From: Acrasis kona
Taxonomy: Eukaryota > Heterolobosea > Eutetramitea > Acrasida > Acrasidae
Direction: 5' to 3'
Length of the DNA: 64,000 nucleotides
NCBI GenBank assembly: GCA_026419775.2
Contig: JAOPGA020001448.1
Location: forward strand, 22,533-86,532
Made by a program: the position numbers and the translations under genes. Every line of letters begins with the position of its first letter. The first letter of the stretch is position 1. The notes beneath the pieces were generated by a model. That model saw only the letters and a list, made by a program, of their open reading frames with translations, had not been told where the DNA came from and did not search any database. Shown here one piece after another: positions 7,155 to 57,204 of this stretch.

Positions 7155-7719
7155 TTAATGACATTAATTAAATACCGTAATTGTACACAATGTAATGTTA
7201 CTTTTAAATTAATGTTTTTGTTCATGATTCGAATCTATCTGTATCTTTTACGGTAAATGGCGAAGCACGTCCAAGAAATTACCAGGTGTCGTTGAGTGTA
7301 CCGCGTCGTAGTTTCTATTCCACTTTGCTGATTAATCAAATTGCGATAGTTGTGTTGGCGGTAATATTCCGATTCTGATCTGCATCAGAACTCTACTTTT
7401 AGGAAAAGTTTAGCGAATGATACTTTGTTGTTGTTAGGGTTGAGGGAAGAAACTATTTCGTATGCTAGGACTGCATAGATGGATTTATTTGCTTCATAGG
7501 TTGGGCATTCGAATTGCCATAAACAACTCGCCATGTTCATGCACAATGAAGCATACAATACTTGAAACTTCTTAAATTTGAGAGAATTCAATTGAGAAAT
7601 ATCATACTACGCCCACAGAACAGTTTCGGCGCTGATGGATTGGTCTTGATATTGTTTCAACGAAAAGTGTCCACATTTTGTAATTGAACTCAACTAACTA
7701 CACATAAGTCATCATAAAG
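7155..7719. other. Intergenic, no supported gene
   Basis: A minus-strand open stretch of 68 codons at 7385–7591 starts without ATG and shows no motif. I see nothing else that I would call a gene here. Confidence 0.4.
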
Positions 7720-9282
7720 ATGTTTGGTTATTCATGTCAAGACACGAGCGATGAACAAAACAACGAGAGGTTTAAATTCAATATAGACGATGAACAAGAA
7801 ATGGTAGAGGAAGAGTTATTTCAGTTAGAAGGAGAATTTGCCGCATTGAAGTACAAGATAAGAGGTGCGAAGGATATCTTTATGAAAGTAATAAATAAAA
7901 TAAAGCAAACCAAAGCAGAAGTGGAATATGAAATTGAGACAAAAGCACAAAAAGAAAAAGAAGAAATTCAAAAACAAGTAGAAAAAGCACAAAAAGTATA
8001 CTTGCACGTCGCGAACAACTTGACAGGAAAGGACAAAATCAAACTAGATATTGGCGGCAAAATATATACAACGTCTTTAAGTACGTTGACAAGTCAGAAA
8101 AATAGCTTCTTCACTGGTATGTTTAGTGAACGAATGCAAACAAAAGCGGAAGAAGATGGTAGCTACTTTATAGACAGAGATGCAGGTGACTTTGACATTA
8201 TACTTGATGGTCTAAGAGGAGAAGATGTAAGTGATAAAATCAACAAACTGGATAAAGAAGAAAAAAAAAGGTTAAAGGCTGACATCAATTTTTATTTATT
8301 AGAAGATTCTTTCATACCATATTTTCCAATAGAATATGAAGGTGTTTGTAATGTCATTATATATGAATCAAATACATTCACACAGCTTCAAGATGGAAGA
8401 TTGATATATGCAAATAAGTATTCAATTAATGAATGGAATGAACAAGGAAAAACAAGGTTGATTGATTATAGGGATGTTAATTCTTTATTACAATTACGAG
8501 ATTTGAGATTGTTGGCAGGTGTTTATGAAAGTCAAATCTTAATATGGAACCTAGATAGTAAAGATTGCATAATGACATTGAATAATTACCAACTAGTCAG
8601 ATGTATTATTCAATTACGGGATGGTAGATTGGTAAGCTTAAGTGATAATGTAATAAAGATATGGTATATAATTAGCGGGCGATGTGTATTGACATTGGGT
8701 GAACGTGATGATAGCTTCGGATCAATCATACAATTACAAAATAGTAGATTAGCAAGTGGAAGCTGTGATGGAACAATCAAGATATGGAACATAAACAATG
8801 GACATTGCGAAATGACATTGGCTGAACATAATTATAGCATCAAATCAATCATACAATTACAAGATAGTAGATTAGCAAGTGGAAGTTTTGATGGAACAAT
8901 CAAGACATGGAACATAAATAATGGACATTGCGAAATGACATTGGCTGAACATAATTATAGCATCAAATCAATCATACAATTACAAGATGGTAGATTAGCA
9001 AGTGGAAGTTTTGATGGAACAATAAAGATATGGAACATAGAGAGCGGGCGATGTGTATTGACATTGGCTGGACATGATAATAGCATCAAATCAATCATAC
9101 AATTACAAGATGGTAGATTAGCAAGTGGAAGTTTTGATGGAACAATAAAGATATGGAACATAGAGAGTGGGCAATGTGAGATGACAATAGTTGATCAAGA
9201 TACATTCATAATTATGCAACTACAAGATGGTAGAATAGCGGGGCAAGCAGTTTACAACGAAATAATCAAAATATGGAGTTGA
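7720..9282 (+). CDS. BTB/T1-domain WD40-repeat protein
   Basis: 520 residues, no intron, ATG at 7720. A charged coiled coil (residues about 20–95, Glu/Lys/Gln-rich) leads into a KCTD-type BTB/T1 domain (about 105–200, with KLDIGGKIYTTS and the SFFTGMF motif). The C-terminal half (about 215–520) is a WD40-like propeller of about seven blades with repeated LASGSFDGTIKIWN motifs. In known families the T1 domain oligomerises and can recruit cullin-3, with the propeller binding substrate; that role here is inference. The four central blades are nearly identical, so the propeller has been recently extended or homogenised. Confidence 0.85.
   Translation: MFGYSCQDTSDEQNNERFKFNIDDEQEMVEEELFQLEGEFAALKYKIRGAKDIFMKVINKIKQTKAEVEYEIETKAQKEKEEIQKQVEKAQKVYLHVANNLTGKDKIKLDIGGKIYTTSLSTLTSQKNSFFTGMFSERMQTKAEEDGSYFIDRDAGDFDIILDGLRGEDVSDKINKLDKEEKKRLKADINFYLLEDSFIPYFPIEYEGVCNVIIYESNTFTQLQDGRLIYANKYSINEWNEQGKTRLIDYRDVNSLLQLRDLRLLAGVYESQILIWNLDSKDCIMTLNNYQLVRCIIQLRDGRLVSLSDNVIKIWYIISGRCVLTLGERDDSFGSIIQLQNSRLASGSCDGTIKIWNINNGHCEMTLAEHNYSIKSIIQLQDSRLASGSFDGTIKTWNINNGHCEMTLAEHNYSIKSIIQLQDGRLASGSFDGTIKIWNIESGRCVLTLAGHDNSIKSIIQLQDGRLASGSFDGTIKIWNIESGQCEMTIVDQDTFIIMQLQDGRIAGQAVYNEIIKIWS
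8721..9190 (+). repeat. Tandem 123-bp WD40 blade repeats
   Basis: Four successive units spaced exactly 123 nt (41 residues), with matching sequence starting at 8721, 8844, 8967 and 9090. They differ by only a few substitutions, such as GRC/VLTL versus GHC/EMTL blades. Confidence 0.85.
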
Positions 9283-25602: not shown

Positions 25603-28001
25603 TTATTGAGCAAACTCAGCTCTTGCACGTCTGGCAGCATTTACCAAGTTAACCAAAGAAGCTTCAGTTTCCTTCCATTGACGAGTCTTCAATCCACAAT
25701 CAGGATTTACATGTAGTAGGTGGGCAGGGATATATTGCAACATTTCCTTGATGCGGGCGTAAATTTCTTCTTCACTTGGAACTCTTGGGGAGTGAATGTC
25801 ATATACACCGGGTCCGATCTCATTAGTGTATGATTGTGTTTCGAAAACCTTCAACAGTTTGCTGTCGCTCTTTGAGTTTTCAATGGTAATCACATCAGCA
25901 TCTAGTTTCTTGATGCTTTCGAAAATGTCATTAAAGTCCGAGTAGCAGAAATGTGAATGTGTTTGTGTGCTGTCGGTAACACCGGCGGTTGCCAAGCGGA
26001 AAGAGTCAACGGCCCAGTTCAAGTACTCTTGCCAATCTGCTCTGCGTAGAGGTAAACCTTCACGAAGTGCTGGTTCGTCGACTTGAATGGCACGAATGCC
26101 TGCCTTCTCTAGATCCACAACTTCGTCACGAAGTGCCAATGCCAATTGACGGGAGCTGATTTCGCGGGATACATCTTCACGTGGGAATGACCAGTTCAAG
26201 ATTGTGACTGGACCGGTCAACATGCCCTTGACTGGTTTTGATGTGAGTGTTTGTGCGTAGCTGCTCCATTTGACGGTCATTGCGAATGGACGGGATACAT
26301 CAGAAACGATGATTGGTGGTTTGACGTAACGTGAACCGTAGGAAGCGACCCAACCGTTTTGAGTGAATGCGAAACCATCTAATAATTCACCAAAGTATTG
26401 AACCATGTCATTACGTTCGCACTCTCCATGAACCAATAGATCCAAACCGACGCGCTCTTGGAAACGAATGCAACCTTCAATTTCCTTCTTGATGAATTCG
26501 GTGTATTCGGTTTCGGTGATTTCTGACTTTCCTAAGCGTTGTCTTGCAACTCTGATTTCCTTTGTTTGTGGGAAGCTTCCGATGGTTGTGGTTGGGAACT
26601 TGGGTAGGTTCAAATTCTGCTTGGTGCGTCTCTCTACGAATGGACTTTGACGTTTGTACATGTCTGGTGTTACTTCGGCAACTCTCTTACGTACGGCGTC
26701 GTTGCTGTTCTTGGTGAATTCTCTACGAGCGTTGATGCTCTTGGCATTTTGCTCTAATTGTTGCTTGACGCTATCAAGGTTGTTGATGCTCTTGGCAATG
26801 ACGCTAATCTCTGCGCATTTTTCGACGGCAAAAGAGAACCAGTCCTTGACTTGATCTGAGAGCTTCTTTTCGTTTACAACAGTGTGCGGAACGTGTAGCA
26901 AGCTGCTGGAGGAGCTCACTTGGACGCGGTCGGCGGATCCTAGAATCTCAATGGCCTTGTTTACAATCTTGATGGATGACTCAAAGTCGTTCTTCCAAAT
27001 GTTACGTCCATCGACGACACCAAGGGACAAAATAATGTTCTTGTCCTTGATGGCCTCGGCGACTTGTTGTAATTGTTCGGGTACGCGCACCAAATCAATG
27101 TGAAGGGCTTGAATGTTCAAGTTCTTGACGTAGTTGATGTTGCTCTCCAAACGACCAAAGTAGGTGGCAAGCAGAATGTTGATGCGGTCATCATGGAGGG
27201 CGTCGAATGCAGTTTGGTAATCTGAGGCGGAGTCGGTTGTCTTGTCTAAAACAAGGACTGGCTCGTCGATTTGAACCCATTTGGCACCAGCATCGGCCAA
27301 TTTGTTCAACAGGCTCTTGTATACTGGTAATAGCTTGGGTAGCAATGAAATGGGTTGGAAACCCTCTGGTGCATCACGGGCTGCCTTACCCAACAACAAG
27401 AATGAGACGGGTCCAAGTAGAACGGGGCGGGCTGGAATACCTTCTTTGGCGGCCTCAACGTACTCATCAACTGTCTTTGTTGTGTTCAAAGTGAAGTTGG
27501 TTTCTGGGGAGAATTCGGGTACGATGTAGTGGTAGTTGCTAGCATATTAGAATTTTGTAAGTAGTTTTGTAAAGCATACCTGTCGAACCACTTCTTCATC
27601 TCTGAAGCAGGGACGTCCACTGCTGGTTTCTCTCCTTTAGCTGGTCTTTGAAGACCACGTCCCATAGCAAAGTACTGTTCTACTGCGGTGAGGTCAAAAC
27701 CTTCGTATCTCTTCGGGATAACGTTGAACATGAACGAGTGGTCCAGAACATGGTCGTACAAGGTGAAATCACCAACTGGTACAATATCCAAACCTTGTTC
27801 AGCTTGGGTCTTCCAGTTACCAGTACGGACTTGACTTGTTTGTTCAAGGAGTTCCTTCTCGGTTAAAGCACCTGACCAGAATGATTCAACGCTCTTCTTT
27901 ACTTGACGGGTGGAGCCTATAGGTGATGGTTAGCCTGTCGAACTGGAGAGCAGAGACATACCAATACGAGGGAATCCTAGTGATGATGCTTTGACTGACA
28001 T
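25603..28001 (-). CDS. metE: Cobalamin-independent methionine synthase
   Basis: 5-methyltetrahydropteroyltriglutamate–homocysteine methyltransferase, transferring a methyl group to homocysteine to make methionine without vitamin B12. Three exons: 27962–28001, 27580–27916 and 25603–27538, introns of 45 and 41 nt, 770 residues, the usual length. The N-terminal half starts with LGFPRIGSTR; the catalytic half shows FPTTTIGSFPQT, VDEPALREGL, the zinc-ligand segment HSHFCYSDF and NPDCGLKTR. The first exon is only 40 nt. Cytosolic by default, as no targeting signal is seen. Confidence 0.97.
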
Positions 28002-28672
28002 TGCTTTTTTTTGTTGAGATTGTGGTGATCCTGTGAAAATTATTTATCTTCTCAGCAAGTTGAGAAGAAGAATGCACCAATCCCGGGGATCATTATTTAT
28101 CCACTGTGGAAAAAATTTGTTCCGCTCCCCTGGCCCAATCAGAATTTGAAAGTCAAAAATAAACACTAACATGACTCATTTCACATTGTAAATAAATTGC
28201 AACAATTCGCCATTGTCCTCCAAAAGAGACTGTGGACTGAGGTTTAGTAAGGATTAATAATTGTCCACAGTCAAGAGGAATCATCTCAATTGTAACATGT
28301 TTATTGATACCAACACCAATGTTTTGGTGAATCACAAGTCTAATATCTTGCCGCCTTGTTGGAACATTTGACTGGTTGAATGTTATTGACCATCACAGCA
28401 TTATGTTTCATGTACTTTACTCCATCTCCCTAATATGCAGGGGCTGATGCGACACAGAATTAGTAGCAACAAATCAACATTGAAATGATCCTATTACTAC
28501 TACATCGAATTTGAACAAATCGTGCAAGAATTAATTGTAATTTTGCGAGAACAAGTACGTTGAAGGCTTCAGTTTGTGACCAAAGCAGATGATGTTTGTC
28601 TTCTAGCATAGTGCAAAGCATCAGAAATATAAAACATTTATTACCCATTGCAAGGCCGAGAAAATTTATACT
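28002..28672. other. Intergenic upstream of MetE
   Basis: About 670 nt containing the MetE promoter region. Open stretches of about 60 codons on the minus strand (28153–28335, 28460–28648) show no domain and no codon-level coding look. Confidence 0.4.
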
Positions 28673-28810
28673 TTATTTTTGGGGTTTTCCTTGAATCGTT
28701 AGACTTGGTCTTTTGTTATTCTCTGAGATTGTGTATTTGAAGATAAACTCCTCATCCTCGCGATTACAGTATAATTTGTTATTATTACTGTTTTTGCTGC
28801 CTGCCGCCAT
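28673..28810 (-). CDS. Possible small protein of 45 residues
   Basis: ATG at 28810 to TAA at 28673. The composition (MAAGSKNSNNNK, then NREDEEFIFKYTISEN and a basic tail) looks like a real small soluble protein rather than chance, and no competing gene overlaps it. It could equally be the last exon of a gene whose upstream exons I cannot place. Family unknown. Confidence 0.3.
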   Translation of the reverse strand: MAAGSKNSNNNKLYCNREDEEFIFKYTISENNKRPSLTIQGKPQK

Positions 28811-28982
28811 TTTCCTCCAAAGCACTAATCATGTTCTCCTTATATTAATCCTCTGTAAGATTTCATTATTGAACTCACCCTAATCCAACCACTTGATGAT
28901 CTGGCGACACCATTTCCATTTCTTGTAAAAAAGGAAAAACATTCGAAAGACAAGAAGATTCTGTTCAATTTCGTGTCCATGG

Positions 28983-28990
28983 TATAAATA
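28983..28990 (+). promoter_or_regulatory. TATA-like box
   Basis: TATAAATA about 33 nt before the ATG at 29023. The same octamer lies about 43 nt before the hydrolase ATG at 41033, which supports a shared core-promoter element. Confidence 0.35.
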
Positions 28991-29022
28991 TTCACAATAC
29001 CTCTACTTGTACTGAAGTAGAA

Positions 29023-30312
29023 ATGCCAAGAAAAATCAAGAAGGCACCGAGAAAGATTGACACAGATTCCGACGCTGGGATTGATGACAGCTTCATTTCC
29101 GAAGCTTCAATTGCCTCCATATCAAGTCATGATCAAAATGACAGCGTCAATCTATCTACCGATAGTTTGGAAGATACTTTTAATGCAAAAGATGACTTTG
29201 AAGACATTTCAAGCTCTAGTGAGGAAGAAGATGATGACCAAAAAAACATGAGGTGGAAGGAGAGTGATGATTGTGGGTGTGAGGACTGTTCAAGCTCTAC
29301 AGGTCACTCGGCCACAAAATTCTATTATAACGAGCAAATGTCGCGGTCGTATCAAGATAAACAACGGAGTGGTCAGTTCCTATTTCCTAAAGGAAAGTCC
29401 AAGAAGTCCAGTAAGGCCAAGAAGACTGAATATACCAAGCTTGGTACAGTATCAGTAGACCAAGTCCGTCGCTTTTATAACGACCACCCATTCTGCCAAA
29501 GTAAGTGGAATTGGCACAAGCATGATGTGTCTCCGGCGATTAAGCACCTTCATGATGAGGATCATCCCCTACCAAAACCAATCATCAACACATGCGTCTG
29601 CGACTACAACATCCCTAGGACGCCAGTATTGTTTAAAAAGATTAGCGCATCATACGCCAACTGCGTAGACACAACCTGCATGCATGATAAAAAGTGCACC
29701 GCCAGAATTATGATCTTAACTCGCAGAAGCAGAGAAGGCATAATTGCTTGCGATGTGCTTGGATCTGGCAAACACACGGATCGTTTCCATCCAAAACTAG
29801 ACCAACTACCACAGTGTAAATTATTGAAGGAGAGATTAGAGACATTGATAGAAAGTGGTTCTGGTAACTCCGATTTACAAGATTTTATCTGTAGGGAGTA
29901 CAATTGCCATGAGGATCCTTTCCTTGACCACCGCTTTGACTATTCTAATGAGCAGCTATCGCAGCTTCGTTACCGTTTCAATCACAAGAAGAACTAAGCG
30001 TCGACGGAACGATTTAATGTTGATCTTGACTTGCACGAGAGTGATGTTGGAGATGGAGTGGAATCAACGACTTTAAATGGTTTTGGAGATTTTATTCTAC
30101 AAGACGATAATGTTACTGTTGAGCACGCAAACAATGAGAACCTCCCTGAACCGACGGTGACTACGACAACAATTGTGAGGAAGCGAAAAAGAATCATTCC
30201 GCAGCCTGTCACCGAAGAGCAAGTTCCGGAAGTGCAGCCGTCGATTGAAGTCGTTTCGACCACACCAATGAGAAAGAGGAGAAGAGTTTTTGTTACATCA
30301 AAAAATAAATGA
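29023..30312 (+). CDS. Orphan Cys/His-rich protein, interrupted by one in-frame TAA
   Basis: From ATG at 29023 a basic N-terminus (PRKIKKAPRK), an acidic Ser-rich stretch and a Cys/His-rich region (CGCEDC; CVCDYN; CVDTTCMHDKKC; GSGKHTDRFH) run to TAA at 29995. The same frame continues open to 30312 with similar composition (DLDLHESDVGDG, nuclear-localisation-like RKRKR and RKRRR). The C..C...C/HxH pattern is reminiscent of WRKY/FLYWCH-type zinc fingers of transposon origin, but this is weak. The stop may be a real terminator, a nonsense mutation, or lie in a 30-nt GTTACC...CTAAG intron that would keep frame. It is next to the Crinkler-like kinase gene. Confidence 0.5.
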
Positions 30313-30552
30313 CTTTCATTTAATATTATTGTATTTATTGAAGCATCGTTGTCAATCTCTGTAAAGAGTGTGACATTCTGGTTGATAATGTATTTAAAAT
30401 TTTCTCTCATTTGAAAAGGTGGCGATGTTGCAAATGGTATGTGTATCAGTTGTGAATATCGATCGACAGTTGCATGTTTTAGATTGTTGAGGATTGGGTA
30501 GTGATGAACTCGGAACAAGGGGATTCCCGGTTAAAACAATACAACAAATTTA
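30313..30552. other. Intergenic between convergent genes
   Basis: 240 nt between two convergent 3' ends; nothing else seen. Confidence 0.4.
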
Positions 30553-33432
30553 TTAAAATGAACAACTTTGTAAAATATCCAACGCTTCCTTGGCAGTTGG
30601 TCTCAGTTTTGGATCCCTGCTTATCATCTTCTCAATTAAACTACACAACTGCTTCCTTTCTGTGCAAGCATTAAATGCTTTTTTAATGTCCTCTTCAAAG
30701 TGCATGGAGCTGTTGGTCCTGATTTTAAAAAGCCATTCTGCAAACGTGATCCCCGCTGAGTATATATCAATCTTATTACTGTATGCATTGCGACATTCGT
30801 CAACCTCAGGGGCAGTATAACCCTGAGTACCAATTCTATCCCAAAAAGGATCTTGAATAAAATAATTGCCCTGGTGAGTTTTTGTGGAGTAATTAAAATC
30901 AATAAGAACAGCGCTCTTGTCAGATTCTCTAATCATTACATTATCAGATTTGATGTCCCTGTGCATATAACCCAAATCGTGCAATTCGCTGATCGCTTTC
31001 AAAATATCACGCATATGATCATTCACCAAATCATGATACTTGCGATCACAACGATCAACTAATTTTTCCATCGAATAAATATAATCTTTATTATTTTTTC
31101 TAATTGCGTATTCGTACATCATTGGCACCCTACCAAATTTCGACATTTTTTTTAAAATGTAAATCTCCTCTGGGTGTTGGTAATATTGGCTAGTTTTTAC
31201 AACTACATCATATTCCCTTTTGGTGGATTTTTCACGCATTGAACCATAAAAGATATTTGACCTTAAACGCTCGTAGCTAGAGAGACACAACCTATTGCCG
31301 CATGTTTTCAAATCATAGATGTATTTACTACCGAATGTCCCGATGAAATCTACTTGCTCTTTAGATCTTGTTCTTTTGTCTGTGCTGCTGCTACTAGTAC
31401 TACCCTTCCCGCTGCTTGAACTTCCTTTGCTGGAGCTTCCACGTCCAGTGTTATGTCTCTTGTTACTTTCTTTCAGATATTTTAATGGAGTTGCTGAAGA
31501 TTTTATGATGGTTGCGTTCATTGGCAACGGAGGCACCTCATGTTTACATAAATGCATGATTAGAAAAGCAGTGAGCTTTGCAACATCCTCATGTTTTGTT
31601 AAACTAAAAGGACCTAACCATGCACCGTCGAATAACCCACGAACTTTATTATCGGAAGAAGATGGCTTCATGTTTGTTACAATTAAATAAACCAAATCCA
31701 CACACACCACAATACCAACAACATAATCAATTACATATCCCGCTATCTTGTCTAAACTATAGTCGAATGTGCTTCTTGTTTCAAAAATAATTTTTTCCAA
31801 GTCTACAAAATCATCCAATTCATAAAATCCATCAGGGCGAACATGTTTGTATTCCACGTAGGTTGTTATATAGCGTTTGTGTTCGTCATAAACAACCACA
31901 TCAGCTCGGAATGGATGTTTTGTTGTTTGGAATCTCTTACTTGTCGGAAATGATTTGTCACTATTATAATATTAGAAAGCATATTAAAAAAAAAACATAC
32001 CATACAACATGTAGGCCAACTAAATTAAATAATTTTTCAAAGACATTTGAAGTTACAAAAACAGTAAAAGTCATCTCTGTCTCAAGATGGCGGTTGATAT
32101 CGCTTCGAAAGATTTCTCGTACACCCAATAGATAGGCGTGCCACTTATGAACGTTGACATGCTTAATTTGTTCGATGCCATCAGTTGATTTTTTTAAATT
32201 TGTTTCGTTCCAACCGTTCATGTATTTATCAAATTCCTCGTTTTCAATGGTGAATAAAAGTTGAAGCTCACTGCTCAAATCGACAAGTGTCTGAGAAAAT
32301 AAAGATTGTCCTGTGTATAATTCTTGGATGGGAACTCCAAACACTGTGTCACTCACTTCGAAAGACCTTACAAAAAGTTAATGTGTATAACAAATCGACT
32401 AATAAATACCATTTGTACATGCATTCAAGAATGCTTCCTCTTGGTCCTAAATGATTTAACATACCAGTATACTTTTCTACAAAAGTATCATAGGTGTCTT
32501 GACGGTTCTGTGTAGGATTAGGAGGTAGTTGAGACTCTTCGCTAAAAGACAACCCAATTTTTTTCTACAACGGTCAATGACATCATTTCATCCACCTACC
32601 ATTTGCTCTTCAGTCATTTTGCTGCATAGTTCAGCCACTTGATTTAACATTTCTTCTTCGTCAGCGCTATCGGATTCATCGTCAATGTTCTCTTCGCTAA
32701 AAGACAACCCAATTTTTTTCTACAACGGTCAATGACATCATTTCATATACCTACCATTTGCTCTTCAGTCATTTTGCTGCATAGTTTAGCCATTCGATTT
32801 AACATTTCTTCTTCAGCGTTATCGGATTCATCGTCAATGTTCTCGGTTATCTCATTAAACTTTTTTGCTTTCTTTTTTGCTTTCTTTTTCGTACTTACAG
32901 CTTTGGACTCATCTTTGGGCTCATCTTCGGACTCATCTTTGTCGACAAATACAATGGACGATCTTACTTTCTTAGCTTGTGGCTCATCTTCATGGGATGA
33001 TATTGCTTTCTTGTTCCTTTGTAAAACTTTGGGCTCATCTTCGGACTCATCTTTGTCGACAAATACAATGGACGATCTTGCTTTCTTAGCTTGTGGCTCA
33101 TCTTCATGGGATGATCTTGCTTTCTTGTTCCTTTGTAAAACTTTGGGCTCATCTTCGGACTCATCATTAACGGACACACGTTTGCTATCGACCAGGTAAG
33201 AGTTGAAATCTTTGGGGAGGCCATTGTTTTTTATATTATTTAAAAATGAATCGGGCATAACATGTTGATAATTCTTGTACTTTGAAACATCCTTTGNGAC
33301 AACAACTACTGAGTCATCGCCCACTCTTGGTGGTTTTGTAGTGGTCTTTAAATTGTACCCTTCTAACATTTCCCTGTACTTTTTATTGTCTTCAGTCCCG
33401 AAGCCAATTATGTAGTAACTCTTCTTGTTCAT
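30553..33432 (-). CDS. Crinkler-like protein: nuclease-like segment fused to Ser/Thr kinase
   Basis: Five exons: 32755–33432, 32600–32719, 32410–32564, 32001–32366 and 30553–31960, introns 35–43 nt, all phases consistent, about 908 residues. The first about 80 residues are weakly BRCT-like. An acidic/basic linker with a duplicated 38-residue unit and Lys-rich motifs suitable for nuclear import follows, then a duplicated exon. A middle region contains FRADVVVYDE...VEYKH, spaced like the D...E-x-K core of PD-(D/E)xK nucleases. The C-terminal third is a kinase with a canonical HRDIKSDNVM loop, a GTQGYTAPE segment and DFN in place of DFG. Nuclease-plus-kinase fusions are known among Crinkler (CRN) type proteins; assignment here is by layout only. 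One ambiguous base lies at 33298. Confidence 0.7.
32565..32754 (-). repeat. Duplicated exon-plus-intron
   Basis: Two 35-nt introns (32720–32754 and 32565–32599) differ at only two bases, and each is followed by the same start of an exon (KKIGLSFSEE). The exon between them (32600–32719, 40 codons) repeats the end of the preceding exon (EEEML...CSKMTEEQM). Both copies splice in phase 0, so the protein gains a tandem 40-residue unit. Confidence 0.85.
32923..33165 (-). repeat. Tandem 114-bp repeat in the kinase linker
   Basis: Two copies of a 38-residue unit (DESEDEPKVLQRNKKA, then SSHEDEPQAKK, then SSIVFVDK), spaced 114 nt, with the start of a third. Almost identical in DNA. Confidence 0.85.
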
Positions 33433-33491
33433 TTTTATTTGACAGATTTCAATTCAAAAAATTTAAGTTCGCAAACACAGCACAAGATCTT

Positions 33492-34089
33492 TTGGGGATC
33501 AAAATTCCTCATCAATATACAACAGATGATAGCAGCAGTGACTTTGAGGAATTGAGTGATTCCGGTAAATGTAGAAAGCGTCTTCGTAAATCAAAAAAAA
33601 TCCAAAAATCCAAAAAGAAAGAAACAGATGTTCCTTTAGATTACGTTGTTGCCTCAACAAGGTGTGCTCTTAAAGCACATCAAAGACACTATATCACCAC
33701 AAACACCGACGACCGTTGAGATGTCTTATGAGGATTACAAGCGCGTCTTCAATGCAACCTCATGCACACATTTTGAGCCACAAATTAAAGTACGAAATAA
33801 TGACCCAAGCACTATGTTTAGCATAAACAAAGAGCAGTTCATTGAAATTTTTGGGGAGGACGAAAAATTTCGAAGAAGAACGAAAGACAACATAGTGACG
33901 GAACTTGTATTCCCCGTAATATGCTGCTATATGCATAACAATAACCCTGAGAAATACATCAGTAAATTTAAGTGGGACTTCATCAATGTTAAAAGCACTC
34001 GCAATGGTCAGTCAGTAACAACATTCAATGGAATAGAAGTTAGGAACACGATGAGGAAGGCATTGTCATTAAGTCGCAAAAACAAGTAA
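33492..34089 (+). pseudogene. Orphan gene with a frame break
   Basis: The first part (33492–33719) is acidic then very Lys-rich (KKIQKSKKKE) and lacks an ATG; coding-like sequence extends upstream to about 33440, next to a possible acceptor site. The second part (33721–34089, or from 33646) is in another frame and encodes about 122 residues starting MSYEDYKRVFN, with a mixed alpha/beta look and a helical end (TMRKALSLSRK). Joining the two requires one frame change between 33650 and 33720. No family recognised. It could be a damaged orphan gene or an unspliced two-exon gene. Confidence 0.4.
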
Positions 34090-46436: not shown

Positions 46437-47840
46437 TTAGAAGAGCAGTCTTTTTTTGATTCTTCTGCCCCTCTTCGATACTGAGGTATGGCCCGGTGAG
46501 TGGTGTAGATCCGATTCAGAAGATTCGACCGGAGTATTTTGTTTGACTTCCTCATTGTCATCTTCCATTCCTTCTTCCATTACTTCTTCCTCTTCTTCAA
46601 CGTCTTGATGGTCTTGAAAATCTTCTTCTTGGGATTCTTCTTGTGGATTGGCTTGGAGAGCTTCTTGGTCGGAGTCGGATTCATCTTGTGATTGGGATTT
46701 CCAGATGTTGTTGACCAGCTTGTTGATATTCTTGGACAGTGTTTCGTTCACAGCCATTAATTGATCCATTTTTGATGAGATGGTGGGTTTCTTTGGGTTA
46801 TTTGTTTTGGGGGATTTGGGGGACTTTGTAACTATTCTTTTGGTAGTTGCTTTAGATGGAACTCTTTTCGAGATTGCTTTTGGAGACTTGATTTTGGTTG
46901 GGGTTATTTTAGGAGTGTTTTTCTTTTTGGATTGGGTTGGTGGTTGGGGTTCCATTTCCAAGTCAGAGTTACTGTCAGAATCTGATGGGTCAATTAAGAG
47001 AGGGGAAGGGTGAGAGCGATTAACGATTCTAATCGTGGAGTTGATAGAGTCGAGGTGCCATAGTATTTGTTTTCTGAGGGTAGAGGCTGTTTGGGAGTCG
47101 AAACATTTAATGATGTGTTGTCCAGCATGTTCTTGGATATCCTCGATTTTGTCGTCAAATTTCTTTTTTAAAATCTTTTTTATCTTTTTAAGGTTGGTGT
47201 TTCCAGTGATGACACATCTTACATCACAGATGGAAAGAGATTGGTCATTTCTGGAGAAGGGGTTGTTGATTTCAGTTAGACGGAATGGGAACGCATGTTT
47301 GTCTTTCTTATTTGTTGGTTCGTGAACCCCGGCTAGTGCGTCTTCAGGCATATCTTCAAAGAAAATAGTATGGAATTTGGCTGCGAATCTTTCGGGGCTA
47401 AAGGTGATATTCATGATTTTTTGATCAATTTTCTCGCTGGAAAGGAAAGCATTGATGGTCCTTAGACACCAGTTGATTTGTTTAGTTTCCAAGGGAGAGT
47501 CATCGACGTGGACTAGTTTGAACGCTTTGAGATGGCTAGCGGTCTCTGTCAGGAAAACTGGGTGATTTTCGTTGTTGAAGTCTCTTACAACTTCCGCGGC
47601 TAGATCTTGATCTTTGATAGCGTATCCTATGCAGCTAATTTTCTTTAGGTAAATATGCCCAGCGGAGGGATCGAAGTTATCACCCATGTAGGCGAGGTGC
47701 TCATTGATTTGAGAATCAATGTCTCCATTCCAATCAACAAGGAACTTGACACCTTTGTTGAATGGGAAGTCCGTCTTGGGGGAGGATGGAGAGTTAATAG
47801 TCGAGAATATTCTGTTGCTTGGTGTGATGGAGTGAGGCAT
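46437..47840 (-). CDS. LINE second frame, ORF1-like basic/acidic protein
   Basis: 467 residues from ATG at 47840. The N-terminal 280 residues are globular, with a segment around residues 205–280 (VRCVITGNTNLKKIKKILKK ... IRIVNRS) that has the beta-alpha-beta spacing of an RRM-like RNA-binding fold. A strongly basic Lys/Pro/Thr region follows (about 300–365), then a helical stretch that could form a coiled coil (MDQLMAVNETLSKNINKL), an acidic Glu/Asp-rich tract and a basic end (RGRRIKKRLLF). It has no zinc knuckle. It probably binds the element RNA like other ORF1 proteins, but it lies downstream of the RT frame, the reverse of the usual order. Confidence 0.7.
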   Translation of the reverse strand: MPHSITPSNRIFSTINSPSSPKTDFPFNKGVKFLVDWNGDIDSQINEHLAYMGDNFDPSAGHIYLKKISCIGYAIKDQDLAAEVVRDFNNENHPVFLTETASHLKAFKLVHVDDSPLETKQINWCLRTINAFLSSEKIDQKIMNITFSPERFAAKFHTIFFEDMPEDALAGVHEPTNKKDKHAFPFRLTEINNPFSRNDQSLSICDVRCVITGNTNLKKIKKILKKKFDDKIEDIQEHAGQHIIKCFDSQTASTLRKQILWHLDSINSTIRIVNRSHPSPLLIDPSDSDSNSDLEMEPQPPTQSKKKNTPKITPTKIKSPKAISKRVPSKATTKRIVTKSPKSPKTNNPKKPTISSKMDQLMAVNETLSKNINKLVNNIWKSQSQDESDSDQEALQANPQEESQEEDFQDHQDVEEEEEVMEEGMEDDNEEVKQNTPVESSESDLHHSPGHTSVSKRGRRIKKRLLF

Positions 47841-48011
47841 GTTTGATTTGTTTGTTTAATTGTCTGAAAAGATTTTTTGGTTCTCAGCTTTTTGTAGATG
47901 GATTGTCTCTTAAGTCAGGGATTATCGCCAAATTCTGAAATTGCACTCATATTAAGTTAAGTAGGAGGTAATATTTGTTTACAATGTATTGGGAAGAGAA
48001 TTTTTTAAAAA

Positions 48012-48173
48012 CCACTTAGTAAGTGGAAAAATAAGTAAAGGTAGATGTAGGTATAGTATATGGAGAAAAACCACTTATAAAGTGGAAAACATTAGATTTG
48101 TGGAAAACCACACCTGGTGGAAACCAATAGATTAATAGATAGGGTCGGATATAAAAAACCACTCATAAAGTGG
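48012..48173. repeat. Four small palindromes between the two LINE frames
   Basis: Short inverted repeats of the CCAC...GTGG type at 48012–48026, 48071–48085, 48108–48120 and 48159–48173, each flanked by A runs. In RNA each makes a hairpin of about six base pairs (four or so for the third and fourth) with a tiny loop. They lie in the untranslated stretch after the RT frame and before the ORF1-like frame. Confidence 0.8.
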
Positions 48174-48307
48174 AAAATTTCCTTATAGATAGTAAATAGT
48201 ATTGTAGGTTATATAGGATTGGAAAAAGAATACGAATTGTTTAGATTGCAGATTGAATGATTGCTGTTTGTCTGGATGTGTCAGTGAATATGTAAAAAAA
48301 GGGAATC

Positions 48308-51300
48308 TTATCTTTTATTTTTTGGAATACTTAAGGAGATCTTTTTGATGGTGAATTGTGCAATAGATTTGTGAATTGATTTCAACATTTTAAAAATAAG
48401 ATTCTTCTTTCTGTCTTTGTTGTATTTTTGTATGCTATAAATACGATTTTTAAAGGAGTAAGATTTTGGGAAGTTTCTTTTGATAAGGCTCCAGGATCTT
48501 GAAGTGATCATACCTCTGATCCCAAAAGTGATAATGTTCCTGTCTTCTAGTGATTGGATTTTTGTTCGGTTGTTTTCGTCTACTATCCTTGTTTTCAATT
48601 TGATGCCTGCCTTTTTAGTGGTTTTTTGGATTTTTCTGTTTAGATCACGGAGGTCATTTGAGGGATTGCATTCTAAAAGCATATGATTTATGGTAGTGTC
48701 TTCACCGCAAATTGAGCATGGGATTCTGGAGCCATCAAAGTTCCTGAAAAACCCATCTAGGCGTGATTTAGCAAGGGCATTAGTAGTGGTGGAGTCGTAG
48801 CTGGAATCCCAAATTCTCATTGAAGAGAGAACGTTAAAGAATTTTCCAGATATGTCAATCGAATTGTAGTTATGTGAAATAGAAACGATGTCCTCTTCGA
48901 TCTCCTTCTGCTGTTTATTTTTGATGATAGCTCCAATATTTGATGCTATGGATTGNCCATCAAAGGAGTAAAAGTGGTCTTTGTTTGCTTCCAGCAGAGC
49001 TGCGTTGATAAGGAGAGGAGGGCATTGTTCTCTACCTATGTTGGCTAGTTTGTGTGCTATGGCGTTTCGTTTGTTCAAGGAGTTGTGACCTTTCTCCCAT
49101 TTCAGGTCAACGTGAATATTTTTATTCTCAGCAAAGTTCCAAAATGCATTCGCTAGTTGTCCACAAGTTTTAGAATTTGGATTCATTTTAGATGCGGTAA
49201 TGTTATCAACGAATAACTCCGCCGAACTGTTTGGTGGGAGTATACGGATGATACAGCAGGCAGTATAGATTTCATTGTGTGATGATGAGTTGACTATTGG
49301 GACACCAAATGCAACTCTGGTATATTTATTATTGTAAAAGATAATTGCACCACCTCCTCCTTGTTGTCCTTTGTTTTTAATTGAACCGTCAATAGAAATG
49401 CTGAAGTGGCTGTTGGCAGGGAAAATAGGGGAGGGAATTTCAGAGTCATGTATGTTATGTATTGGTGGGAATTGTTGAATATAATTATTGTGGTAGCGGA
49501 TAATTGAGATTTTAAATTGTTCGAGAAGGGATAGGGTAGTTTTAAGTGGAGATTTAGGACTGGAAGGGATACTACTCTCATAGAGTTCTTTCATGGTAGA
49601 ATAGTAGGTTGGGAAGAAGTCAGAGTTGAGGTTGTTAATTAAAGTATTGAATCTGCTAATGTATGCTGTGATTCTCGTAGATTTAACCCCCCAACCAAGG
49701 TTTGATCTATTGTATTTCATCCAGGCTGTGGGGAATATTTTGCAGGCATACATTGCTTTCCTAATAAGGCCGTTTAAAGTCCCATCGATTAGGTCCAAGC
49801 CTGTATCTGTGATGTGACCTAGAGCAGATTGATATCTTACTACTCCTAGGATTATTGATTCGGCGAAATGGATTACTTGTCTGGGTTTGATCAGATTGGG
49901 GCGTAATTTTTCAATTTTTTGTTTGATCTTTGATATGATCTCCTTTGTGTTAATAGTAGAGGCTTGGGAATAGCAAAGCCAATGTCCAAGGTATTGAAAG
50001 CCTTTTTGGTTGTCTAGAACTGTAAAATTATGGAAGGGATCTGAGGATGTGGATAGTTTGTCGTTGGAGTAGATCCAAGAAATACATTTTGTTTTGTTTG
50101 TGTTGATTTTCATACCCAGGAGGTCCGCAAGTTTCATTATTATTTTCATAGCTTGTTTTCTACCTTTGAGTGAGTTTGTTATAATTGTCATATCGTCTGC
50201 ATAGTTAAGACACGACACGGTAATGGAAGAATCTAATGGGTATCCTATCTTTTTCCCGTAGGTTCGTATTAGTCGAGTAATAATTTCGGTGTATATGTTA
50301 AAGATGTTAGGAGCAGAAGGATCTCCTTGAATAGCACCTTTCGACCAATTTATGGGTTCAGATAAACCGAAGCCAGAACGGATTACAATTTGGTGCGCTG
50401 ATAGGAGGTTTTCAAAGAGGTTTATAACCGCCAGAGGGAACTTCATCAGACGCATTAATTCCCATAGTCTATTGTGTATGAGACTTGTATAGGCATCCGC
50501 GTAATCAATAAGGGTAATTGTTAGTGATTTTTTGTTACGTTTGGAGTGCGACATGATATTATTTAGAGTTGATGTAAGGTCAGAGCATCGTGCTCCTTTT
50601 TTGAAGCCTCTTTGGTTTGGAGATATGGAGTTTGTGTCGTTGAGTGCTTCTGCTAGTCTTGCATTGATCACAGTTAGGAGTAGTCTATAAGCGGTTGGAA
50701 GGACATTAATTGGACGGTAGTTATTTATGTTTAAAAGAAGGTTTTGGTCCGTGACTTTCGGGATTAGGTTGAGGACTCCTATTTTTAGGGATGAGTCTAG
50801 GCTGTCTTCATTAGATATGATTTTGGAAATGCCATTCGCTAGGCGTTTGATGTGGTCAGGAGGGAGAAGTTTCCAAAGTCTGTTGGGGATGCCATCAATG
50901 CCTGCACAACCTTTGCATCTTTTAATAATAGAGGTAAGTTCATCCGTAGAGACAGGTCTAAAAAATCTTTTGATGTCTGATTGTGACCATTCTTGGCTAG
51001 AGTTAATAAGAAAATCCTGTAGGGGTTTAGGAATGTGAGCCGTAGGTGGAATTTGGAGGCGTTCTTCGAACTTGTTTTTGATGTAGATTAGAAGTTCTTG
51101 TTTCTCTGTTATGATTTTTTTCCCCTCATCTTCTAATCTCGTAATGTTGATTGTAGATTTTCGGCCTTTAAAGATTGTCCAAGCTAACTTATGGTTGTTA
51201 GCAATTAGTTTTTCGTAATGTATTTTGTAGGTGTTGATCATAGACAGGAGTTCTGTATTTTTGTCTTTTTCTAGTGCGAGTAGGCATAGGTTGGCGGCAT

Positions 51301-52360
51301 TGTAGATTGAATAAGAGTGGTATAGGTTTGGAGTGAAAGTAATGTTGTTGCGAATGCATTCTTCTTTAATTAGGCTGTAGGCTAGTCTACGTGTTTTCGA
51401 GTTTTCGTCTAGAAGATTGTTGATTGCGGATTCTAGTTCATCCATTCTATCGTAAAGGCGGGTGATTTCTTTGCTCATGAAGGCTTGGTGTCTATTACTT
51501 TTCATTTTTGGTCCTATTTTTAGGGTTTGTTTGCAGGAAGTATCATATGCTTTAATTAACTCGGAGAACGTGGGGTTATCTGTGGAGATGGATTTTTCAG
51601 TGTTTGCGATGGTTTTGAGGAGATCTTCATCCGTGTAACTGTAAGTAGGATAAATGTTATCTCTTGATGGTTGTGTAGTAGAGAAACTAAATTCGAGTAG
51701 GAGGTGGTCCGTGAAGATTTTCTTGCAGTGAATGGTTTTGTTTGAGGAGGAGGAGATGTTTTCGATATAGGAGTAGATGTAGTCGAGGCGACTTCCGCTT
51801 TTGTGAGTCGGGGAAGGTTGGCATGATTGCATGAATCCAAAGGATTGCAATAGAGAAGATAGTCTTAGGGCTCTTGGGTGGTTAGATGTCATGTCGACAT
51901 TAAAGTCTCCTGTAACAATAATGTCATGACCCGCTTTGTGGGCGGATTTCATCCAAACTTCTACGTCTTTTTCTATCATGAAGCATTCTTTCTCCGAAGT
52001 AGAATTGTCTGGATTCGTCGGAAGGTAAACGTTGATTATTGATGTTATTCTGTTGTTAATGATGGCAACAGTCTCTTGGGCTCTATGGGGATTGAGTAAA
52101 CTTTTGTGCTTTGTGATAATAATACAGTCATCGTCTAGTATGGTGGCAACTCCCCACTGTCTTGTGTCATTGCTTGAGCCGAATGTGATTTGTTTTGGGA
52201 AAAGTCTTCTTTTGATAATGTGTTCATCTTTTGAAGAGATTCTGGATTCTTGGATTGTGAAAATCTTTGCTTTAAGATGTGTCATGGTATTAATTATGTC
52301 TACTGAGACATGGGGTCTTAGGAGTTTTCCATTGATATTCCTTGAGAGTATAGTAGTCAT
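48308..52360 (-). CDS. LINE endonuclease–reverse transcriptase–RNase H protein
   Basis: 1,350 residues from ATG at 52360. An APE-type endonuclease opens the protein (TIQESRIS, VTGDFNVDMTS, SRLDYIYS). The reverse transcriptase occupies about 480–780, with LNLIPK, NYRPINVLP, LIDYADAYTSL (first catalytic Asp) and the YADD motif near residue 719. An RNase H domain begins near 985 (SIDGSIKNKG, HNEIYTA, LFVDNITASK, giving D-E-D). A CCHC-like motif lies near 1213 (CSICGE...HMLLEC). All catalytic residues I can check are present. It nicks target DNA and copies element RNA by target-primed reverse transcription. One codon contains an ambiguous base. Confidence 0.93.
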   Translation of the reverse strand: MTTILSRNINGKLLRPHVSVDIINTMTHLKAKIFTIQESRISSKDEHIIKRRLFPKQITFGSSNDTRQWGVATILDDDCIIITKHKSLLNPHRAQETVAIINNRITSIINVYLPTNPDNSTSEKECFMIEKDVEVWMKSAHKAGHDIIVTGDFNVDMTSNHPRALRLSSLLQSFGFMQSCQPSPTHKSGSRLDYIYSYIENISSSSNKTIHCKKIFTDHLLLEFSFSTTQPSRDNIYPTYSYTDEDLLKTIANTEKSISTDNPTFSELIKAYDTSCKQTLKIGPKMKSNRHQAFMSKEITRLYDRMDELESAINNLLDENSKTRRLAYSLIKEECIRNNITFTPNLYHSYSIYNAANLCLLALEKDKNTELLSMINTYKIHYEKLIANNHKLAWTIFKGRKSTINITRLEDEGKKIITEKQELLIYIKNKFEERLQIPPTAHIPKPLQDFLINSSQEWSQSDIKRFFRPVSTDELTSIIKRCKGCAGIDGIPNRLWKLLPPDHIKRLANGISKIISNEDSLDSSLKIGVLNLIPKVTDQNLLLNINNYRPINVLPTAYRLLLTVINARLAEALNDTNSISPNQRGFKKGARCSDLTSTLNNIMSHSKRNKKSLTITLIDYADAYTSLIHNRLWELMRLMKFPLAVINLFENLLSAHQIVIRSGFGLSEPINWSKGAIQGDPSAPNIFNIYTEIITRLIRTYGKKIGYPLDSSITVSCLNYADDMTIITNSLKGRKQAMKIIMKLADLLGMKINTNKTKCISWIYSNDKLSTSSDPFHNFTVLDNQKGFQYLGHWLCYSQASTINTKEIISKIKQKIEKLRPNLIKPRQVIHFAESIILGVVRYQSALGHITDTGLDLIDGTLNGLIRKAMYACKIFPTAWMKYNRSNLGWGVKSTRITAYISRFNTLINNLNSDFFPTYYSTMKELYESSIPSSPKSPLKTTLSLLEQFKISIIRYHNNYIQQFPPIHNIHDSEIPSPIFPANSHFSISIDGSIKNKGQQGGGGAIIFYNNKYTRVAFGVPIVNSSSHNEIYTACCIIRILPPNSSAELFVDNITASKMNPNSKTCGQLANAFWNFAENKNIHVDLKWEKGHNSLNKRNAIAHKLANIGREQCPPLLINAALLEANKDHFYSFDXQSIASNIGAIIKNKQQKEIEEDIVSISHNYNSIDISGKFFNVLSSMRIWDSSYDSTTTNALAKSRLDGFFRNFDGSRIPCSICGEDTTINHMLLECNPSNDLRDLNRKIQKTTKKAGIKLKTRIVDENNRTKIQSLEDRNIITFGIRGMITSRSWSLIKRNFPKSYSFKNRIYSIQKYNKDRKKNLIFKMLKSIHKSIAQFTIKKISLSIPKNKR

Positions 52361-52430
52361 ACCACCTCAGGGGAAGAGAAGGAGAATGTGTGGCTAGACC
52401 CGACTTAACACCGTTTTACGGTCAACCCCC

Positions 52431-56231: not shown

Positions 56232-57106
56232 TTATAATGCATTGTGATCACGTCGAGCTCTCGTCTTAAACAGCTTGATGATGCCTGCACACACTACCCA
56301 GCACATATTATGCTCTTCTTGTACAGAGTCAATGTTTGAAACACTTCCTCGAAATGTATCCTTACAAATGTGGAACTTTCGAATTTGGTTGATGACATTT
56401 TCGATAACAATCCGTACGCTCTTGAAATTCTTGTTGAACTCTATTTCCTCCTCAAACATCTTTACCCCTTTTGGCTGCTCAAATGGAAGTACAGAGGCAT
56501 GTAACTTTTGAACACCAGTAAATCCACCATCAAATGCTATCGCTTCATCCTCATCCAGCAGCAGGTCAATTCTATTCTCTCCTAACTTGTACATTTCAAA
56601 ATCTGAAGTCGAACCTGAGTATGATGATGATATCTGGTAGAAAGCACCTTCTGGAGACGAGTTTATCAACATTGTAAAAGTGTGCTTTTTCTTTTTTGGG
56701 CTATATACCACCTTCTCCTGCTTGCGGTCGTCTGGTGTTTTACACTGTTGCTCTGCCCCATCACACACAACTGCTATAACTCTCCCATAAAATTTGATAG
56801 AGTGTTGATCTCGAACACTTCTTGGTGGGAGAAATATCTCAGGCTTCATAAATCTGTGCAGTACTCTTCTTCCTGACCATACATACCTTCCAACAGTTGA
56901 TACTGAAACATTGAACAAGAAAGACATCATGCTATCGGAAGGATACTGTCGTAAATACAACATGACCATCACTAAATGTTGTTTTGGAGACAAAGTGCGA
57001 TTACTTGATCCATTCAACTTCTGGTCATCCCATCTTGTAATTTTACAATCCCGAAGACTGATGCTCACCATGCTCAACAAGATGCCAAAGCTTTCAATTG
57101 GTATTC
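56232..57106 (-). CDS. DDE_4 superfamily transposase (Harbinger-like)
   Basis: About 290 residues. A helix-turn-helix-like N-terminal part (LSPKQHLVMVMLYLRQYPSD, then VSVSTVGRYVWSG) leads into the DDE_4 nuclease core: first Asp in AVVCDGAEQ, second in AIAFDGGF, Glu in RIVIENVINQIRKF. All three catalytic residues are present and the frame is open to TAA at 56232. The 5' end is uncertain: an acceptor-like TTTAATAG at 57107–57114 suggests this is the last exon, while the frame stays open without ATG to 57125. PIF/Harbinger elements move by cut-and-paste. I could not find terminal inverted repeats by eye. Confidence 0.8.
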
Positions 57107-57204
57107 CTATTAAAGCAAGAAACAAATGTGGAGAAAGAAATAGATGATCAGATATATCTATTAAGAGTTAAACTGTTTTTACTTCAGACACTCTAACCAG
57201 GTGT

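Follow-up and report, generated by a model that had tools for sequence, protein, structure and literature searches.

The window, by which we mean the whole stretch of 64,000 nucleotides of Acrasis kona DNA that was analysed, carries on its minus strand one spliced gene that encodes a header, a charged linker, a nuclease-like middle region and a C-terminal protein kinase, and that is flanked by relics of two multicopy gene families (Table 1). The earlier note on this DNA had pointed to paralogues in the same genome as something to look for; we found four copies of the gene, the one in the window and three others, here called C120, C213 and C574 (a search with the exons gave 8 matches from 9 candidates).

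Table 1. Features of the gene and its surroundings, in window coordinates
Feature	Position	Strand	Details
Whole gene	30553..33432	-	five exons, 892 aa (888 with alternative splice phase)
Exons 1-5	33432-32751, 32691-32596, 32536-32410, 32366-32001, 31960-30553	-	prediction; exon 4/5 junction also by annotation
Header, residues 1-95	33148..33432	-	no Pfam, PADLOC or NCBIfam match
Tandem 114-bp repeat, 2.2 copies, 98%	32913..33165	-	codes for acidic/basic linker with clusters such as NKKARSS
Tandem duplication of ~155 bp, includes a whole intron	32535..32844	-	makes exon 2
Nuclease-like middle region, residues 260-570	31522..32536	-	genomic span including introns 3 and 4
Candidate PD-(D/E)xK centre	31846..31902	-	D444 31902-31900, E460 31854-31852, K462 31848-31846
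Protein kinase, residues 651-892	30556..31281	-	K679, HRDIKSDN, DFN, APE
Unit shared by window and C213	30521..33511	-	ends ~75 bp upstream of the ATG and ~30 bp past the stop
Relic of multicopy transposase-like gene, convergent	29023..30312	+	50 genome matches including itself
Relic of second multicopy ORF family (MSYEDYKR...), divergent	33516..34089	+	33 genome matches including itself

A single spliced gene

The GT...AG ends of introns 3 and 4 are clear. For introns 1 and 2 there are two possible cuts, which leave the frame unchanged and give 892 or 888 residues; the phase-0 choice at both yields the 888-residue form, with no stop before the end. Residue 46 is ambiguous in the window (N at 33297) and is alanine in the other three copies. 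The earlier note had described a spliced five-exon frame of about 908 residues. We confirm the frame and its exons on the minus strand, with C120 and C213 open to the same stop, and correct the length to 892 or 888. The ADVVVYDE...VEYKH segment that it had placed ahead of the kinase is likewise there (RADVVVYD at residues 442-449, VEYK at 459-462).

An annotated A. kona protein of 494 aa, P0001, shares 99.1% identity with copy C213 over 469 residues, which identifies the host as A. kona or a very close strain. P0001 spans the exon 4/exon 5 junction as predicted, so that one annotated protein holds both the nuclease-like segment and the kinase. The D...ExK region and the kinase also lie together in exon 5, in a single open frame of 472 residues. 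The annotation of P0001 begins inside exon 4, at a position equivalent to residue 400 here, and the header is missing from it; relative to the gene described above, the public protein appears N-terminally truncated. Thus, the locus contains one spliced gene, in which the exon 4/5 junction is given by annotation and the remainder by prediction together with the ends of the unit shared among the copies. As a whole the gene is more than a chance frame, being open in C120 and C213 over the whole length between the shared ATG and the shared stop.

Ten other long ORFs of the window were scanned. Their matches include methionine synthase, ketopantoate hydroxymethyltransferase, UFL1, an amino-acid permease and a hybrid histidine kinase, and the window resembles ordinary amoeba DNA, which makes contamination unlikely. 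We also noted a BTB and WD40 protein (7708-9282, plus strand) with 123-bp repeats that are 88% matched and perhaps reflect a recent expansion. A non-LTR-type retroelement (46437-52366, minus strand) consists of a 472-aa ORF with no Pfam match over cut-off and a 1352-aa ORF with Exo_endo_phos, RVT_1 (9.4e-30) and a weak RNase H match, and a DDE_Tnp_4 transposase (1.3e-22) with HTH_Tnp_4 lies at 56232-57167 (minus strand).

Header and linker

In the genome the header occurs only in the four gene copies (4 of 4 candidates). Reading its sequence directly, we saw neither an LFLAK nor an HVLV motif, nor a hydrophobic leader, and the Crinkler header PF20147 is not among the Pfam matches of the protein up to E 10, in agreement with the earlier description of this header as not obviously ubiquitin-like. 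PF20147 was not found in the genome, but since the control genomes gave no match either, this negative does not prove that it is absent. Two candidate identities were discarded: a BRCT domain, which seemed possible by eye (BRCT families are absent among the Pfam matches up to E 10), and a resemblance to PDB entry 8yri (E 0.002 over 49 residues, the last of them a His-tag-like end), which we judged to be chance. The number of linker repeats varies among the gene copies, and in the window protein the repeat is followed by KKKAKKKAKK at residues 182-191. The duplication of ~155 bp, comprising an exon and an intron, is present in the window, C120 and C213 and absent in C574.

A protein kinase at the C-terminus

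The kinase displays K679, HRDIKSDN at residues 757-764 (D759, N764), DFN at 778-780 (D778) and APE at 807-809; HRDIKSDN and the replacement of DFG by DFN had both been reported in the earlier note. That note had also named a profile search of the C-terminal part against kinases, and called the kinase complete. Pfam PF00069 matches residues 672-885 at 89.5 bits, well over the cut-off of 31.7 (E 3.2e-25), but only from profile position 47 onwards, so that a glycine loop goes unrecognised and ‘complete’ is slightly generous. The catalytic residues K679, D759, N764 and D778 are present; given DFN in place of DFG and the unrecognised glycine loop, kinase activity is put no higher than likely. The closest other kinase in the genome shares 32% identity with this one over a part of the domain, and for the kinase part the protein searches returned one Paramecium kinase besides the A. 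kona protein.

Several kinases of known systems resemble this domain. The best PADLOC matches of the exon 5 protein are the defence kinases MkoA (1.2e-24), MADS MAD6 (9.2e-24) and PD-T4-6 (5e-20), and BREX PglW also matches it (1.4e-7). Because the best 25 of 35 families align in the kinase only (266-470 of 472 residues), these matches indicate a protein kinase and no more. The fungal protein kinase FunK1 (PF17667) reaches 27.9 bits, over its cut-off of 24.1, but its match covers residues 740-807 only and falls far short of the PF00069 score. The segment ahead of the kinase may resemble FunK1 N-termini.

A candidate nuclease centre in the middle region

The D...ExK segment of the middle region reads RADVVVYDEHKRYITTYVEYKH and contains D444, E460 and K462, which are identical in all four copies. 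The loose motif D-x(10,20)-[DE]xK arises in 64% of shuffles of residues 396-570; alone, it is no more than chance would give and is weak evidence. A stricter pattern with hydrophobic flanks added, which was composed after the sequence had been seen, arises in 3.9% of shuffles of residues 396-570 and in 8.3% of whole-protein shuffles, and among the 35 window ORFs of at least 150 aa it is found in two, this gene and one unrelated ORF.

Profile searches gave no nuclease. Outside the kinase, no Pfam family matches over its cut-off, the best for the middle region being Colicin_V (E 0.12); the best PADLOC match of the region is PbeC (0.0087, 12.6 bits) and the best in NCBIfam a TetR regulator (0.097). 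A PDB sequence match to a dynamin-like protein (8ct1, E 0.8) was judged to be chance. In protein searches with the middle region the A. kona protein itself was the sole match (3242, 5917 and 131 candidates); these searches need shared 5-residue words and can miss distant kin, so that finding no relative does not mean that none exists. When viral and genome contigs were compared with residues 260-578, patterns matched 5 and 17 stretches, of which none was confirmed, and phage records gave no match to the exon 5 protein.

The earlier note had assigned a restriction-endonuclease fold to this region, with profile search and structure prediction as the means of checking it. Neither lends the fold support: no profile matched, and two AlphaFold2 models, one of P0001 alone (mean pLDDT 35.2) and one of the 172 residues at the start of the window's exon 5 with P0001 as the second row (mean pLDDT 35.5), were unusable. 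Both models place strands on or next to the D and ExK segments, but with pLDDT values of about 30 there, to which we give no weight.

Four copies and a dispersed DNA unit

C120 and C213 keep introns at the same places as the window copy, and their exon indels relative to it are of 3, 12 and 102 bases only; C120 has 898 or 894 codons including the stop, and C213 has 866 or 862. C574 carries a one-base deletion in exon 4 that shifts the frame, is without the first tandem intron, and has a divergent exon 1 that aligns badly. It matches the window from 27160 to 32695 at 98.4% and may therefore be the other haplotype of this locus or a segmental duplicate of recent origin. A search of the genome for more distant paralogues of the middle region or the header found none.

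What the window, C120 and C213 have in common is little more than the gene itself (~3 kb), introns included, set in different flanks. C120 shares 30192-33506 with the window, with a patch replaced at about 30437-30512. The introns kept in the copies indicate copying via DNA, and we rejected retrocopying on this ground. Mobility by terminal inverted repeats was likewise dropped, since a search for inverted repeats joining the ends of the unit found none.

All four copies have transposon-like or multicopy ORFs no more than a few kb away, which bears out the link to transposons drawn in the earlier note. In the window, the convergent relic keeps the N-terminal part of its family (324 residues), followed by a stop codon and a join to another tail. 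Full relatives of this family (L056, L063) have a terminal SWIM-like finger (E 0.0047 and 0.029, under the Pfam cut-off), and by motif we take the family to be MULE-like. The divergent relic is cut at its 5' end at 33516, where it abuts the gene unit. Members of its family that were scanned (for example L041, L042 and L047) have no Pfam match over cut-off; one group is only ~30% identical to the query, and the family as a whole may represent an unclassified mobile-element gene. Near C120 we found another relative of the convergent family, an ORF with DUF7869 (2.4e-34) and an HTH_29 ORF just under its cut-off (3.4e-6, 27.5 against 28.1 bits). Near C574 there is a Tet_JBP-like oxygenase fragment (L021:7731-8138, minus strand; 2.1e-5, 24.2 bits, under the cut-off of 34.9). 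The case is weakest for C213, which adjoins an armadillo-repeat host gene and for which it rests on a broken relative of the divergent family ~1.3 kb away. Contig C213 also has a 187-aa ORF (L026:1659-2219, plus strand) with paired CxxC-type motifs, HNH-like by eye and with no Pfam match.

Selection is unequal on the two halves

We estimated omega for the four sequences with our own GY94-type likelihood script. Domain limits were taken from the anatomy with the alignment already seen, the pooled span 260-570 was introduced afterwards, and the p-values below are uncorrected for the number of tests and come from non-independent pairs. By minimal-path counts over the four copies, residues 260-570 have accumulated 69 nonsynonymous and 11 synonymous changes, as against 4 and 7 in the kinase (651-892; Fisher p 8e-4). 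Without C574 the contrast persists, with 10 synonymous and 57 nonsynonymous changes in 260-570 and 7 and 4 in the kinase (p 1.4e-3). A shared omega for the two spans is rejected (p 0.0016; p 0.0009 without C574). Thus, selection acts unequally on the two halves: the kinase is constrained and the middle region evolves fast.

For residues 260-570, omega is 2.23 (against 1, p 0.009), or 2.36 when C574 is left out (p 0.022), and for 300-570 it is 2.31 (p 0.026). When C213 is left out, the estimate for 260-570 falls to 1.56 and significance against 1 is lost (p 0.24), and 396-570 alone gives 1.95, which is not significant (p 0.13). Selection on the middle region (260-570) thus appears to be diversifying, with the test for omega above 1 depending much on C213. 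In the kinase, omega is 0.26 for 651-892 (p 0.025) and 0.49 for 571-892 (p 0.12). The header (1-95) shows zero synonymous changes in any pair (p 0.02). Comparison with non-coding sites of the window copy, C120 and C213 points the same way: 60 of 929 sites vary in 260-570, and in introns and ends 4 of 311 (p 9.5e-5), whereas the kinase, with 11 of 727, behaves as the non-coding sites do (p 1.0). For pairs with C574, one of three such comparisons is significant (p 0.011; the others p 0.18 and 0.15).

The substitutions crowd at residues 283-298, 450-454, 467-473 and 491-499. The last three clusters adjoin the D and ExK segments and precede a long unchanging hydrophobic stretch, and no substitution separates the copies at 424-445, 455-462 and 500-526. 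What is new here is this combination of a constant kinase with a possible DNA-cutting half that changes unusually fast between copies.

Discussion

As described in the part of PMC5289972 available to us, a restriction endonuclease (REase) coupled to a kinase accounts for about one-sixth of the C-termini of Crinkler-RHS-type (CR) proteins, the REase being thought to be the toxic part and the kinase its regulator. The same text reports header types other than the Crinkler header in the CR family, describes Crinkler-type proteins as best known from parasite effectors and as reported also in free-living eukaryotes, and relates a proposal that their effector parts arose in prokaryotes, where they were directed against invading DNA inside the cell. 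Like the CR/CRN proteins so described, the protein studied here has a kinase after a D...ExK segment, a modular build of header and effector, a link to transposons, and basic clusters consistent with a nuclear location. Unlike them, it has no LFLAK or ubiquitin-like header, its middle region matches no profile and is read as an REase by motif alone, and its host is a heterolobosean amoeba. Since the CR family has other header types, according to the same text, the missing Crinkler header lowers the case for membership but does not exclude it. Protein searches by shared 5-residue words gave no sequence link to a named Crinkler. We found no literature joining Acrasis with Crinkler, and the word ‘crinkler’ is absent from the main text, as available to us, of the A. 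kona genome paper (PMC11589745). Our best reading is that the protein would work like a CR REase-kinase; we do not file it as a Crinkler, membership being unproven. Of the Crinkler-type reading in the earlier note, the union of a D...ExK region and a kinase in one gene is supported, as are the paralogues and the transposon-like surroundings; the restriction-endonuclease fold, a Crinkler header and a sequence link to a named Crinkler are not supported.

With moderate confidence, we propose that one gene at this locus encodes a conflict protein of CR-type architecture that acts inside the cell, probably in the nucleus. The proposal builds on the constant kinase, the fast orphan domain with a plausible nuclease centre, the basic clusters and the lack of a hydrophobic leader. 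The protein would start with a header specific to its lineage, continue with a charged linker that holds basic clusters, and carry a divergent restriction-endonuclease-like domain ahead of the C-terminal kinase. Its middle domain would most likely cut or bind the nucleic acid of an opponent, perhaps mobile DNA, a virus or another cell. The kinase, kept constant, may switch the middle domain on or off by phosphorylating either that domain or a partner, the same division of labour as between toxic REase and regulatory kinase in the available account of CR proteins (PMC5289972). Loops around the presumed active site would change quickly because the opponent changes, and the gene has been copied, close to remains of transposons, within a short stretch of DNA of ~3 kb. 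A role in conflict had been suggested earlier, and the fast evolution of the nuclease-like half fits such a role.

The main rival is a sensor kinase without a nuclease. In such an intracellular receptor kinase the middle region would be a binding domain whose fast-changing face recognises a foreign protein or ligand, and the kinase would signal. We assign this explanation a low but substantial probability. It agrees with the failure of every method to match a nuclease and with the frequency of the loose D...ExK motif in shuffled sequence, and diversifying selection beside a conserved kinase fits a receptor as well as it fits a nuclease. However, D444, E460 and K462 are fixed while the adjoining loops change (a weak argument with four copies), an REase joined to a kinase is a known combination according to the available text of PMC5289972, and no sensor family in Pfam, PADLOC or NCBIfam matched the middle region either.

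Less probable, and in our view unlikely, is that the gene is mainly a transposon passenger that a MULE-, Helitron- or similar element captured and copied, that serves no function in the long run and whose copies are now decaying. The multicopy or transposon-like ORFs near all four copies, the frameshift in exon 4 of C574 and the varying number of linker repeats would all be expected of such a passenger. Yet three of the four copies are open over 862-898 codons, the exon indels of C120 and C213 are multiples of three, and the kinase is constrained over 651-892, if less clearly over 571-892. In three copies more sites vary in the middle region than in introns and ends, for which drift alone is insufficient, and the search for inverted terminal repeats found none. 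That the gene is instead a selfish toxin, a killer element of gene-drive type that spreads by harming cells or meiotic products without the matching antidote, seems very unlikely: a multicopy, fast-changing orphan in a dispersed single-gene unit suits it, but the unit ends close to the gene and carries no companion antidote gene. Least probable is a misreading of two neighbouring genes as one, for which the start of P0001 inside exon 4, without the header, might speak; the earlier note had itself considered that the halves could be separate genes, and for middle region and kinase this is largely refuted by P0001 and by the single open frame of exon 5, both of which join the two, while the duplicated unit in C120 and C213 begins 75 bp upstream of the header's ATG.

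Returning to a conflict protein of CR-type architecture, we put forward a more specific form of it only tentatively: a free-living excavate amoeba would harbour a nuclease-kinase propagated by transposons, in which both the header and the nuclease family are new and the substrate-facing loops are under pressure from an arms race against mobile DNA or viruses within the cell. If this is true, the protein would be the counterpart, in a eukaryote, of nuclease-kinase defence proteins known from bacteria, or else a selfish element with the same chemistry. With a constrained kinase and a middle domain that outpaces its own introns, this set of copies allows such an intracellular role of Crinkler-type effector parts to be examined in a heterolobosean amoeba that lives freely, and four copies that are nearly identical and differ for the most part in a handful of loops amount to something like a natural mutagenesis series.
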